Positions 13,017-18,869 of a stretch of DNA of 25,137 nucleotides are shown here, in pieces. Under the pieces are notes generated by a model. That model made no database searches. It saw only the letters and a program-made list of their open reading frames with translations, and had not been told where the DNA came from. Origin of the DNA: a virus; the IMG/VR virus record IMGVR_UViG_3300008451_000420, positions 1 through 25,137 of that record; one strand, given 5' to 3'. Numbering within the stretch: position 1 is the first letter of the stretch; each line of letters begins with the position of its first letter. The translations under genes were made by a program, and so were the position numbers.

Positions 13017-13569
13017 TATTATTTTACTTGTTGACACTGATTATGTGAAGCAGAACTCTTTTTTGATTGAGAGTATTGAAGAGAAGTACATTGAGATTTC
13101 TATTATGAACTCTCAAAGATTGTATATTGAGCCTATTTTAGGTAGTAAATTGTATAAGAAACTTCAAACACTTATTAATGATGATTCCATCAATGCTACT
13201 GGAAACACTGCATACAAGAGTTTGTTGGATGAATATGTGGTTCCTGCACTCACTTATATGACAATGTATGAGTGTATTTTACCACTTACTTACAAAGTAA
13301 CCCCTAAAGGGTTGATTAGGAATAACAATGAGAACTCTGAATTACCATCAGCAGAAGAAATTAGATATCTAAGTGGTCAATTTAGCCAAAGAGGAGAGAA
13401 GTTTCTTGAATTATTGAGAAAGTATCTTATGGATGATACATACAATCAGAACTTACCAGAGTACAATTCATCTGATTTACAAAGCTCAGAGGTAGCACCA
13501 GATACAAAATCACAATATAAAACTTCTATTTATGTTAAACGTAACAACAGGTGTAGATACGATTTCTAA
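13009..13569 (+). CDS. Head-tail connector-like protein
   Basis: A mostly helical 186-residue protein overlapping the portal gene by 8 bases. The N-terminal VDTDYVKQNSFLIESIEEKYIEISIMNSQRLYIEPILGSKLYKKLQ (seen in parts, about residues 8-53) is a pattern I know from head-tail connector (gp6-like) proteins of Bacteroidetes phages, where helices form a ring under the portal. The C-terminal third is polar and probably disordered, ending in YVKRNNRCRYDF. It follows the portal, as such connectors usually do. The family assignment is by pattern only. It has no enzyme motif and no membrane segment. Confidence 0.65.
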   Translation: MANIILLVDTDYVKQNSFLIESIEEKYIEISIMNSQRLYIEPILGSKLYKKLQTLINDDSINATGNTAYKSLLDEYVVPALTYMTMYECILPLTYKVTPKGLIRNNNENSELPSAEEIRYLSGQFSQRGEKFLELLRKYLMDDTYNQNLPEYNSSDLQSSEVAPDTKSQYKTSIYVKRNNRCRYDF

Positions 13570-13579
13570 TAACAATACT

Positions 13580-13969
13580 ATGAAAAGCTGGTTAATCTCT
13601 ATATTGGTGTCAGTTTTGGCAGCATTATCTCCAATTGTACCCTTATTTATTACTGCTACATTGCTTATTGTAGGTGATATGATATTTGCTTTGTATCGAG
13701 CCTACAAGAATAATGTACCAATTACATCTAGAAAACTCTCTCAAATACTACCAAAGCTTATCCTATACAATATTGGGATATTATTAGCATTCTTAGTAGA
13801 GCAGTACATATTAGTAGGATCAATACCAGTTAGTAAATTAACAGTAGGTGCAATTGCCCTAGTAGAAATGAAGAGTATTGATGAAAGTTTTCAAGCTATC
13901 TTTGGATATAGCCTATATTCTAAATTATTAGCAGCAATAAAGAGACCTGAGCAGAATCCTAACAAGTAA
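13580..13969 (+). CDS. Holin (phage_holin family)
   Basis: From the ATG at 13580 the protein has 129 residues, starts MKSWLISILVSVLAAL and holds three likely membrane segments (about residues 4-20, 24-41 and 58-77), a loop with TSRKL between the second and third, and a C-terminus with EMKSIDESFQAIFG, both typical of the holin_4 type family. It would open the inner membrane to release the lysin. I prefer 13580 to an upstream in-frame ATG at 13532 because that one would overlap the connector gene by 38 bases and add a polar, non-membrane stretch. The other lysis genes lie on the opposite strand beyond the large RNA, so holin and lysin are in different transcripts. A strong terminator follows. 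Confidence 0.75.
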   Translation: MKSWLISILVSVLAALSPIVPLFITATLLIVGDMIFALYRAYKNNVPITSRKLSQILPKLILYNIGILLAFLVEQYILVGSIPVSKLTVGAIALVEMKSIDESFQAIFGYSLYSKLLAAIKRPEQNPNK

Positions 13970-13987: not shown

Positions 13988-14014
13988 AAAAGGGGCAATT
14001 AAGCCCCTTTTTTT
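13988..14014. terminator. Bidirectional intrinsic terminator
   Basis: AAAGGGGC (13989-13996) pairs with GCCCCTTT (14003-14010) over a 6-base loop. Seven Ts follow on the plus strand, and four Ts on the minus strand. It ends the holin transcript and, from the other side, the small zinc-ribbon gene whose stop is two bases away. Confidence 0.85.
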
Positions 14015-14015
14015 G

Positions 14016-14162
14016 TTACCAATTTGCAAACTTTACTAATTCTTTTCTCTCTTTACTATCAGGTTTGGTATTTCTATACTGATAGATGAACTCACATTTT
14101 GGACATCTTCTTCTATTGTTATCTATTAGGATGTTACATCCTTTTGTTTTACAGGTTTTCAT
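14016..14162 (-). CDS. 48-residue zinc-ribbon protein
   Basis: A short minus-strand frame begins at 14162 (MKTCKTKGC...) and stops at 14016. It has C4, C9, C20 and C23 (CxxxxC and CPKC), the layout of a zinc ribbon, with a very basic stretch (NNRRR) between the pairs and a charged C-terminus. The start has an A-rich leader (AACAAACAAAAAT). It sits just downstream of the large structured RNA and ends next to a terminator, so one transcript could contain both. It may bind RNA or DNA or the RNA polymerase; there is no evidence for which. Ribbons of this size are common in phages and mostly unstudied. Confidence 0.7.
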   Translation of the reverse strand: MKTCKTKGCNILIDNNRRRCPKCEFIYQYRNTKPDSKERKELVKFANW

Positions 14163-14179
14163 ATTTTTGTTTGTTTAGT

Positions 14180-14738
14180 TACATCGTTAAAATCTCCTTT
14201 ACATACTTTTTCCCTTAACAAAAGGAAAAGAGTATAAAAAAATATAATCTTTCTTTTGATGTAATAGCTTCGATGTGTTTATCAACAAATCTAAGCCTTA
14301 AATTAGCAACTTATAGAGTAACAGTGTTTCAGATTGCTCTGATGCCTCGTGTTAGTGATTTAAGATGCTCAATCCTGTATTTCTCAGGGGAGACTTACTT
14401 CTTTACTATTCGTTCACTAACTACTCATTACTCACTTCGTGTACTAACAATTTTCGGGAGTATCGGAGAAAACCACTTTCAAGATGACAATAACTAATGT
14501 TATTCACTCTACTCGCATAATCCAACTTCTGAGCTGCTAACTATCATTTGACCCTCACAGCTGTCATACCCATACCTTATAGGGTATCTCCCTCGTATTA
14601 CTGCGCTATAATGCTTTCCATTATAGTGTCTTACGTAAGTTACGGTAGGTTTTTATTTAATTTTAAATGGAGAAAAACCTAACTTGAAAAAACTCATTGA
14701 ACAATTGATGTTTGACAGACACCTTACTGACCTTTCGA
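14180..14738 (-). ncRNA. Large structured non-coding RNA, possibly an ornate phage RNA
   Basis: About 560 bases hold no believable gene but many perfect helices on the minus strand. These are TAGGTTTTT/AAAAACCTA with inner ATTTAA/TTAAAT (14646-14681); CTATAATG/CATTATAG (14606-14626); ATACC/GGTAT (14572-14587); AGCTG/CAGCT (14532-14562); AATAAC/GTTATT (14489-14504); GAGTA/TACTC (14458-14514); GTTAGTGA/TCACTAAC (14351-14421); a 5-bp stem with a GCAA tetraloop (14329-14342); and GATGTAA/TTACATC (14179-14264). A 14-bp hairpin occupies 14203-14235. GC content is visibly higher than in neighbouring genes. A well-formed promoter lies just upstream. Size and setting recall phage RNAs such as GOLLD and ROOL, but I see no motif proving either. 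The 3' end is not clear; it may run on into the zinc-ribbon gene. Confidence 0.65.
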
Positions 14739-14742
14739 TATT

Positions 14743-14773
14743 CAAATTTACGAAGTAAATTCTACACTGCAAA
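14743..14773 (-). promoter_or_regulatory. Bacteroidetes-type promoter for the structured RNA
   Basis: On the minus strand TTTG (14773-14770) is followed after exactly 19 bases by TAAATTTG (14750-14743), a full match to the Bacteroidetes consensus TTTG-N19-21-TAnnTTTG. Transcription should start about 5-7 bases downstream, near 14737. No coding frame starts there, which supports a non-coding transcript. Confidence 0.7.
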
Positions 14774-14814
14774 ACTTTTTTTCATATTCCAGTCACTTTT
14801 TTGTGTCACTGTAG

Positions 14815-14846
14815 CAAAAAAGAAACCCTCCTTTTTGGGGAGGGTT
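14815..14846 (-). terminator. Terminator of minus-strand lysis group
   Basis: AACCCTCC (14824-14831) and GGAGGGTT (14839-14846) form an 8-bp stem. On the minus strand it is followed by TCTTTTTT, so it ends the transcript of the lysin, spanin and small CxxC genes, 40 bases before the RNA promoter. Confidence 0.85.
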
Positions 14847-14885: not shown

Positions 14886-15041
14886 ACATCCTTCACACTG
14901 GTAATTACTTCCTGGTGGTGGTTCACTGCTAATACCTAACTTTCTTTCTAGTTGCAATATTTCATCTTTAAGTTCCATCAATTCAAAGAAGTCTAGATTA
15001 TCTTCTAGTAACCTCTTTCTCAACAAATTTAGTTCATCCAT
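14877..15041 (-). CDS. 54-residue protein with CxxC tail, end of lysis operon
   Basis: The frame starts at 15041, its ATG sharing one base with the stop of the spanin-like gene (TAATG), and ends at 14877. The protein is a charged amphipathic helix (DELNLLRKRLLEDNLDFFEL, about residues 2-21), continues as helix to about 35, then has EPPPGSN and closes with QCEGCGS. The CxxC may bind a metal as a dimer or form a disulfide. It has no membrane segment or signal peptide. Tight coupling to the spanin-like gene suggests a shared role or shared timing, but no function is recognised. Confidence 0.7.
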   Translation of the reverse strand: MDELNLLRKRLLEDNLDFFELMELKDEILQLERKLGISSEPPPGSNYQCEGCGS

Positions 15042-15469
15042 TATAGTATATTTAGTTTTTTAAGTACAATCATTGCAATAACTGTGCAAAACAACCATAT
15101 TCCTGCTACAATTATCAACCACTTCTTCCAACTTTCCTCTACTTTCTTCTCTGCTACTACCTCCTTTGTTTTAATCTCCTGTACCTCTCTAATAGTTTGC
15201 TCTTTCAATCTTACAGTATCATACACTGTTTTGTAGCTAATCTTTACTGAATCTCTAAGATACTTGTATTCGTGTGATATTAGCTGTTTAGAGAGCCTGA
15301 ACTGTTGTCTTGGGGTAAGACCTTCATTTGGAAGAGAAACCCTGTTAGAAGTCAAATATGAGCTTCCTGCAGTACCACAACTATCTATTTGTTCCATATC
15401 ATTCTGTTGCATTACCTCTGTACTCCTACATCCTGTAAAAAGTAGCAGAAAAATTAAGTATTTCATCAT
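15041..15469 (-). CDS. Candidate one-piece spanin (lipobox plus C-terminal membrane segment)
   Basis: The 142-residue protein begins MMKYLIFLLLFTGC, a short lipoprotein signal with a lipidation Cys at 14, and ends with one strong membrane segment (about residues 117-136) followed by KKLNIL. Between them is a polar region rich in charged residues (about 50-115), likely helical. This is the topology of a u-spanin such as T1 gp11: outer membrane anchor by lipid, inner membrane anchor by a C-terminal helix, joining the membranes at the last step of lysis in Gram-negative hosts. It lies 3 bases after the lysin candidate. F at the -3 position of the lipobox is less usual. A non-lytic envelope protein is the alternative. 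Confidence 0.65.
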   Translation of the reverse strand: MMKYLIFLLLFTGCRSTEVMQQNDMEQIDSCGTAGSSYLTSNRVSLPNEGLTPRQQFRLSKQLISHEYKYLRDSVKISYKTVYDTVRLKEQTIREVQEIKTKEVVAEKKVEESWKKWLIIVAGIWLFCTVIAMIVLKKLNIL

Positions 15470-15472
15470 TAG

Positions 15473-15868
15473 TTAAATATGTACAATCTCAATTTCAATC
15501 TCTTTGTAACCCTCTAATTTTGTCATCAATTGTTGAAATGCTGCCCTACTCATTGATAATCCTTTAAATCCTCTACTTTGACCTACTAAGATGCAACCTT
15601 CTGTATCATTTTCAGTGTTACCAGAGTGTATTCTAATACCTTCAAAGAGTGATACATTGAGTAGGAGGGGCATTTTCTTCTTAAATCTCTTTGACATATT
15701 GAGGATTACCTTGTATTTACCCTTTGATATTGCTGTTTTAGCTGGTATTTTCTCATTTCTAACTGTATCTTCTAATGTGTAGCATTCAAATTTATCATTG
15801 ATGTACAACTTACCCATTGTTTTTGAGGGTAAAAATAGATCTCTTTCTAGTCTAAGATTTGCTTTCAT
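15473..15868 (-). CDS. DUF5675-type protein, candidate endolysin
   Basis: A 131-residue protein matching the DUF5675 pattern: GKLYIND (19-25), YTLEDTVR (30-37), PAKTAISKGKYKVILN (42-57), PLLLNV (67-72) and the key IRIHSGNTENDTEGCILVG (78-96) with H81, D88 and C92. The HxGN...GC layout recalls L,D-transpeptidase-like folds, so it may act on peptidoglycan. Such proteins are common in Bacteroidetes phages near lysis genes; enzyme activity has, to my knowledge, not been firmly shown. It heads the minus-strand operon with the spanin candidate right behind it, which supports a lysis role. No signal peptide is present, so it would rely on the holin to reach the wall. Confidence 0.7.
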   Translation of the reverse strand: MKANLRLERDLFLPSKTMGKLYINDKFECYTLEDTVRNEKIPAKTAISKGKYKVILNMSKRFKKKMPLLLNVSLFEGIRIHSGNTENDTEGCILVGQSRGFKGLSMSRAAFQQLMTKLEGYKEIEIEIVHI

Positions 15869-17747: not shown

Positions 17748-18869
17748 ATGAAAAAAGTACTTGTTGTAACATCAAATGATGGAGTTGGACTTCATCGTAT
17801 TATGAATCCATCTATTATGCTTGAAAAGATGGGTTTGGATAAGAAGTTAGGGATTGAATTTTTGGTAATTCCTACTCTAAAACGCACCACACTTGAAGAT
17901 TTTATTGAAACTACTAAGGAGTATGAGTATGATATGGTATGGTTTAACAGAATCATTCAACTTAATATCTTCGATGGTAAGGTTAAAAGTATAGAGAATG
18001 AAAAATTTATGCAATACTTCAAGAATAAAGGTGTAAAGATCCTTATGGACTTAGATGATTATTGGGTATTGAATAAAGAGCACGTAGCATATGAGTTGTA
18101 CAACAAAGTATTAGCTAAGGAAATCATCCATTGTTTGAAGTATGCTGATGCAGTAACAGTAACAACAGAGCTTTTGAGAGATAGAGTGTTGCAGTACAAC
18201 AAAAATGTCTTCATTCTACCTAATACTATTGCTCCTGGTAACCTTAATGCTGAGTTACTTGACTCAAAAACACACGAGGGTATCCAATTTGGTTGGGTGG
18301 GAGGAGTTACCCACTACCACGATTTGCTACAAATTAAAAAGGGATTACCAACAGATGTACACTACGTTCTTGGAGGGTTTGATAAGAGGTCATTACACGA
18401 GTGGAAAAGAATGGAGAGTATCTTTACTAGGAACTACACAATTAAAGGCTCTGAGGAGCTTCTAAAGTGGGATGGTGACAAAAGTATTGATGGTTACACT
18501 AGAGTATGTACCAGAGATATTTGGTCATACCTAAGTATCTATGAGAATATTGATGTTGCATTGATTCCTTTGTTAACTAATGAATTCAATAGCTACAAAT
18601 CACCCCTCAAATTAGTTGAAGCTGCAGTTACTGGTACTGCTATCATTTGTGATAATGTAGAGCCCTACAAACAGTATTTGAAGAATAAAAAGAACTGCTT
18701 GTTGGTTAATAATAAGAGTGATTGGGCAAAGCATATCAACACTCTAAAAAACAACCCATCACTTATTACAGATTTGCTATATGGATTGAGGGAGACAGTA
18801 TTAGAAAACTTCAATTGGATGCACGTTACAGTACACAGAGCAGGTATCTTTAGTTCACTTTTAAATTAA
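17748..18869 (+). CDS. GT-B glycosyltransferase (GT4-like)
   Basis: The 373-residue protein has the two-domain GT-B form. The N-terminal half starts MKKVLVVTSNDGVGLHRI and includes ILMDLDDYWVL (about 98-108) and ADAVTVTTELL. The C-terminal half has FGWVGGVTHYHDL, IDVALIPL, and SPLKLVEAAVTGTAII (285-300) with E291, the nucleotide-sugar-binding Glu of GT4-like enzymes. It lacks a signal peptide, so it works in the cytoplasm. Substrates could be a phage virion protein, modified DNA bases or a host envelope precursor. Directly coupled to the methyltransferase, it may make a methylated sugar mark. Confidence 0.8.
   Translation: MKKVLVVTSNDGVGLHRIMNPSIMLEKMGLDKKLGIEFLVIPTLKRTTLEDFIETTKEYEYDMVWFNRIIQLNIFDGKVKSIENEKFMQYFKNKGVKILMDLDDYWVLNKEHVAYELYNKVLAKEIIHCLKYADAVTVTTELLRDRVLQYNKNVFILPNTIAPGNLNAELLDSKTHEGIQFGWVGGVTHYHDLLQIKKGLPTDVHYVLGGFDKRSLHEWKRMESIFTRNYTIKGSEELLKWDGDKSIDGYTRVCTRDIWSYLSIYENIDVALIPLLTNEFNSYKSPLKLVEAAVTGTAIICDNVEPYKQYLKNKKNCLLVNNKSDWAKHINTLKNNPSLITDLLYGLRETVLENFNWMHVTVHRAGIFSSLLN

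Follow-up and report, generated by a model that had tools for sequence, protein, structure and literature searches.

A structured noncoding RNA of 560 nt behind a consensus promoter in a phage of likely Bacteroidetes host

The window, that is the whole stretch of 25,137 bases analysed here, is a virus record encoding a portal, a head protease, a large terminase and other phage proteins, and its minus strand carries a structured RNA of 560 nt (14179-14738) whose folded shape is kept by evolution. The count of helices in one sequence is weak evidence for such a fold; the comparison of two sequences is decisive. The RNA is phage-encoded, longer than 400 nt, covarying and devoid of a conserved protein frame, and belongs to the descriptive kind of large structured phage noncoding RNAs. 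The reading favoured here, to which we give about an even chance, is that of a new and rare class of such RNA, about 560 nt long, the most likely product being the folded RNA itself, acting in trans. To our knowledge very few large structured phage RNAs have been described and none has a settled function; the present one is uncatalogued, of considerable size and supported by covariation, and none of the known families applies in this phage group. The closest named terminases are those of Flavobacterium phage 11b and Cellulophaga phage phi10:1 (44-47% identity), so a Bacteroidetes host is likely, and the relatives of the phage infect Bacteroidetes (marine and freshwater flavobacteria).

Table 1. 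Features of the RNA locus and of its surroundings in the window (identities refer to the homologue L002)
Feature	Position	Strand	Remark
Small membrane protein, holin-like by eye	13532-13969	+	near the RNA
Bidirectional intrinsic terminator ending the RNA/ORF unit	13988-14011	-	conserved in L002
48-aa zinc-ribbon ORF	14016-14162	-	immediately 3' of the RNA
RNA domain IV, long imperfect 3' hairpin	14179-14264	-	closed by 14258-14264/14179-14185
RNA domain III, short hairpin region GGCUUAGAU...AUCGAAGCU	14264-14300	-	92% identity; pairing predicted
RNA domain II	14302-14448	-	closed by 14442-14448/14302-14308
RNA domain I, multibranch core	14448-14600	-	88-94% identity
Variable hairpin, 14620-14626 with 14606-14612	14601-14640	-	compensatory changes
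RNA 5' domain, hyperconserved	14641-14738	-	98% identical
Promoter TTTG-N19-TAAATTTG (Bacteroidetes -33/-7)	14743-14773	-	exact consensus; 100% identical
Direct repeat AGTGAC...AGTGAC	14792-14810	-	just upstream of the promoter; identical
Terminator of the upstream minus-strand operon	14824-14846	-	conserved; separates the operon from the RNA unit
Lipoprotein-like protein with C-terminal membrane segment, spanin-like by eye	15041-15469	-	
DUF5675	15473-15868	-	near the RNA
54-aa ORF		-	also near the RNA

Conservation of the fold

A single homologue was found in IMG/VR, L002 (IMGVR_UViG_3300016665_000498), a 4.2-kb contig which keeps the gene order from the portal through DUF5675. Its genes are about 74-87% identical to those of the window in the 4.1-kb overlap, and identity across the RNA varies by part from 60 to 98%. 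The two sequences were aligned by MAFFT on sequence only and the minus-strand consensus was obtained by RNAalifold. It comprised 150 pairs (164 with RIBOSUM scoring), none of them broken, and 21-22 two-sided compensatory changes between window and L002. Column shuffles, in which conserved and changed positions keep their pattern, gave 4.15 +/- 1.98 compensatory pairs, none of 120 reaching the observed 22, and a consensus energy of -66 +/- 5.6 versus -109 for the true alignment. The best helix showed five compensatory changes in 7 bp, against three at most in 100 shuffles. An earlier note on this DNA had proposed a large structured minus-strand RNA, and the covariation with the homologue (22 compensatory pairs) bears this out; the covarying structure extends to 14179. 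The individual helices should be read as predictions from one evolutionary comparison, that of two members.

The fold of the single sequence was marginally beyond chance on the minus strand (z -1.67; 4/100 shuffles) and gave z -2.72 on the plus strand. The modest first value speaks for chance folding of non-coding spacer DNA, but the covariation exceeds all shuffles and refutes this explanation, leaving it hardly any probability at all.

Helix covariation shows by nature on both strands. The RNA was assigned to the minus strand because the consensus is more stable there (-109 versus -92 on the plus strand), because the sole conserved GNRA stem occurs on that strand only (UCAGA-GCAA-UCUGA in the window, GUAGA-GAAA-UCUAC in L002) and because the promoter lies there likewise. 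Across the RNA region no frame is open in both homologues: the frames of either strand are full of stops or unshared by window and L002, and a plus-strand ORF of 74 aa in the window was rejected as a gene, since it is not kept in L002. The view that the region holds no convincing gene is thus sustained, helices being conserved instead of a protein frame.

The 5' domain contains a 9-bp helix (14673-14681 with 14646-14654) that is invariant in L002. The adjoining variable hairpin has 60% identity and is paired in both sequences, UAAU/AUUA being replaced by CAAG/CUUG. Domain I is built from the helices 14582-14587/14566-14571, 14557-14562/14532-14537 and 14468-14475/14448-14455, the pairs of which are kept, some of them through G-U/A-U changes. 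Its conserved loop UCCGAUACUCCC can pair with GGGAG at 14588-14592; both strands are invariant, and because nothing varies there this pseudoknot or kissing site is a candidate only. Domain II comprises an 8-bp helix (14414-14421/14351-14358) and a GNRA hairpin (14329-14342), with three compensatory pairs in the closing helix, one in the 8-bp helix and two in the hairpin, whose tetraloop changes from GCAA to GAAA in L002 and so remains GNRA. The pairs of domain III are invariant between the two sequences, hence without covariation. Domain IV shows 61% identity, yet each sequence alone folds into the same hairpin, and its closing helix, UUACAUC/GAUGUAA in the window and UGAAUCA/UGAUUCA in L002, accounts for five compensatory changes.

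Both the 8-bp pair and the GCAA stem of domain II had been named by the earlier note and were found at the places given there. The 14-bp hairpin that it also listed corresponds to one of two elements, an 8-bp hairpin at 14606-14626 or the long imperfect hairpin at the 3' end. The higher G+C content it described is true of the core (14301-14600, 38.5%), the sole raised part; the whole RNA has 33.9% G+C versus 33.7% for the window.

The transcription unit and its promoter

The promoter, TTTGCAGTGTAGAATTTACTTCGTAAATTTG on the minus strand, matches exactly the Bacteroidetes consensus TTTG/TAHHTTTG (PMC6847099), as had been stated before. One perfect host-type promoter is present in the window and about one is expected by chance; the call is credible because of the position and the complete identity in L002 and not because of the rarity of the match. 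From the spacing given in PMC6847099, transcription would start at about 14738.

Within the 4.1-kb overlap no conserved stretch is longer than a block of 155 bp (14656-14810) with one difference between window and L002, which spans the AGTGAC repeat, the promoter and the first ~80 nt of the RNA. The promoter and 5' domain are 98-100% identical, compared with 74-87% for the genes of the overlap, the downstream ORF included. The AGTGAC repeat occurs once in the window, where 0.04 such matches would be expected, and is a possible site for a regulator, either activator or repressor. Such a block could be a cis-acting transcription element, an antitermination or regulator site controlling read-through in the manner of the HK022 put RNA, to which the remaining fold would be secondary. 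This we consider improbable: the covariation spans the whole 560 nt to 14179, more than a site close to the promoter would require, and between the RNA and the terminator there is nothing but a tiny ORF.

This ORF, which had been overlooked by the earlier note, encodes a 48-aa zinc-ribbon protein with 81% amino acid identity in L002, and 15 of the 23 differences fall at third positions, the ORF being under purifying selection. Its product matches weakly the N-terminal zinc-ribbon part of the HNH family phrog_144 (E 1.6e-4). The last covarying helix of the RNA ends 16 nt before its AUG. Neither a terminator nor a second promoter was found between the two, and since no terminator separates them, read-through from the RNA into the ORF is to be expected, which makes it likely that both are on the same transcript. 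Terminators isolate the RNA/ORF unit on both sides. This unit of promoter, RNA, small protein and terminator is short and well bounded, and therefore can be made and tested directly.

The arrangement keeps a cis-acting role in play, in which the RNA would be an unusually long 5' UTR controlling transcription or translation of the zinc-ribbon ORF. This main rival, which we hold to be possible though rather unlikely, is favoured by the shared strand with nothing to end or restart transcription between RNA and ORF, by the distance of the last helix from the AUG, as a leader would have, by the selection acting on the ORF, and by a start context rich in A, such as Flavobacterium uses (PMC6847099). 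Against it, the 5' domain of the RNA is better conserved than the ORF, and Rfam yielded no leader or riboswitch match. Usual leaders are, moreover, far smaller than ~560 nt. The start region of the ORF is predicted to be mostly open in the window and paired to 432-441 in L002; since this pairing is not shared by the two homologues, a translational switch is poorly supported by these predictions on two sequences. A structured RNA product is the better reading because selection on the 5' part is stronger than that on the ORF, and because the start-region pairing is unshared. In L002 (2390-2560) the ORF leader CCUUAAACUC could pair perfectly with GAGUUUAAGG of the RNA over 10 bp, a pairing of which the window is incapable.

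Distribution and comparison with known RNA families

The search of IMG/VR by five DNA patterns derived from the RNA retrieved L002 and no third copy; a pattern match in another record, L017, lies inside a transposase-like gene and was rejected as chance. One RNA-derived pattern gave no match in 84,980 prokaryote genomes, and blastn of the RNA against phages and plasmids returned only terminator or short chance matches. L002 was also the sole relative retrieved with the zinc-ribbon ORF, and a search of genomes by TerL found no relatives. With a covariance model built on domain I, neither 14 distant portal/DUF6712 relatives nor four flavobacterial phages gave a hit, and the distant phage relatives have no gap at the place equivalent to the RNA locus. 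No description of this RNA was found in the literature. The RNA appears to be narrowly distributed, two members being known from these searches.

Rfam gave no match in the window at gathering scores, and at E <= 10 unrelated weak hits only, in window and L002 alike. No tRNA was found in the 25 kb of the window, a contig that may be incomplete. The suggestion that the RNA might be GOLLD or ROOL was thus not upheld, neither model matching at E <= 10 in either homologue and no tRNA being present, and the suggestion of a new class survives. GOLLD is often longer than 800 nt, as against the 560 nt found here, and the overall size of ROOL is similar to that of the present RNA. The likeness to ROOL consists in being phage-encoded, with many helices and no known function; the differences are the phage group and the lack of a tRNA island in the contig, such an island not being universal in ROOL. 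With GOLLD the RNA shares the state of a large structured phage-encoded RNA, and differs in having no tRNA nearby.

OLE RNA, a large RNA for which small proteins are considered as partners, was rejected as well (its model has no hit at E <= 10 in window or L002); by this likeness one may guess that the zinc-ribbon ORF is a partner of the present RNA. As a likely co-transcribed product the zinc-ribbon protein is a candidate partner such as GOLLD and ROOL do not have.

The structured RNA next to an ORF that weakly resembles an HNH family in its zinc-ribbon part, together with the GNRA hairpin, might recall a mobile ribozyme or guide-RNA element, of the group I/II intron or HEARO/omega RNA kind, surviving as a remnant beside an HNH ORF in decay. 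This is largely refuted and very improbable: no intron, HEARO or similar model matched at E <= 10 in either homologue, the unit has its own promoter and terminator and splits no gene, and the 48-aa ORF, conserved and uninterrupted in the two phages, is not decaying. For introns in particular, no neighbouring ORF is split in the window or in L002; for HEARO/omega RNA, the neighbour is the zinc ribbon only, with no IscB/IsrB-type nuclease.

GOLLD and ROOL are phage RNAs often found beside tRNAs, both form RNA cages, and GOLLD rises during lysis (PMC12286853). The closest RNA in setting is that of the Vibrio phage ICP1, a noncoding RNA of ~800 nt at the lysis cluster which is the most abundant ICP1 transcript (PMC7567579); the likeness, an orf-less space at a lysis cluster in a phage without tRNAs, is one of setting. 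Phage and host differ, and blastn of the present RNA against the phage collection gave short chance stretches only. All three are thought to be structured products of like kind, and the present RNA is not homologous to those that could be tested.

Possible action and neighbouring genes

If the folded RNA acts in trans, host RNA polymerase would start at the promoter, the consensus of which is exact, and the transcript would fold into an invariant 5' domain and four further structured parts, as the observed covariation indicates. Transcription would then read through the zinc-ribbon ORF to the terminator at 13988, and the RNA might work alone as a scaffold, or join the basic zinc-ribbon protein or some host component in an RNP. 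Action during the lytic phase may be supposed because the RNA adjoins lysis-type genes. Antisense pairing with plus-strand mRNAs of the phage was within chance by a shuffle control; that with minus-strand sequence reached 15 nt at most, judged by the plus-strand mRNA control, and no target was evident. It is tempting to speculate, doubtful as this may be, on a new and independent 'ornate' RNA class in Bacteroidetes phages, which would form oligomeric particles, of RNA or of RNP, together with the zinc-ribbon protein encoded beside it, perhaps via the UCCGAUACUCCC loop and the GGGAG strand.

The location had been described as a phage lysis region. Lysis-type genes do stand beside the RNA, and the label is plausible, not proven. 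The product of 15041-15469 resembles a unimolecular spanin, and its gene adjoins that of the DUF5675 protein, a possible endolysin. Farther away, the product of 18881-19621 matches weakly the phage RNA polymerase sigma factor family phrog_1740 (E 8.4e-7) and is possibly the phage's own late regulator. A glycosyltransferase gene (17748-18869; phrog_7162, E 3.8e-50) is flanked by methyltransferase-like and sigma-like genes.
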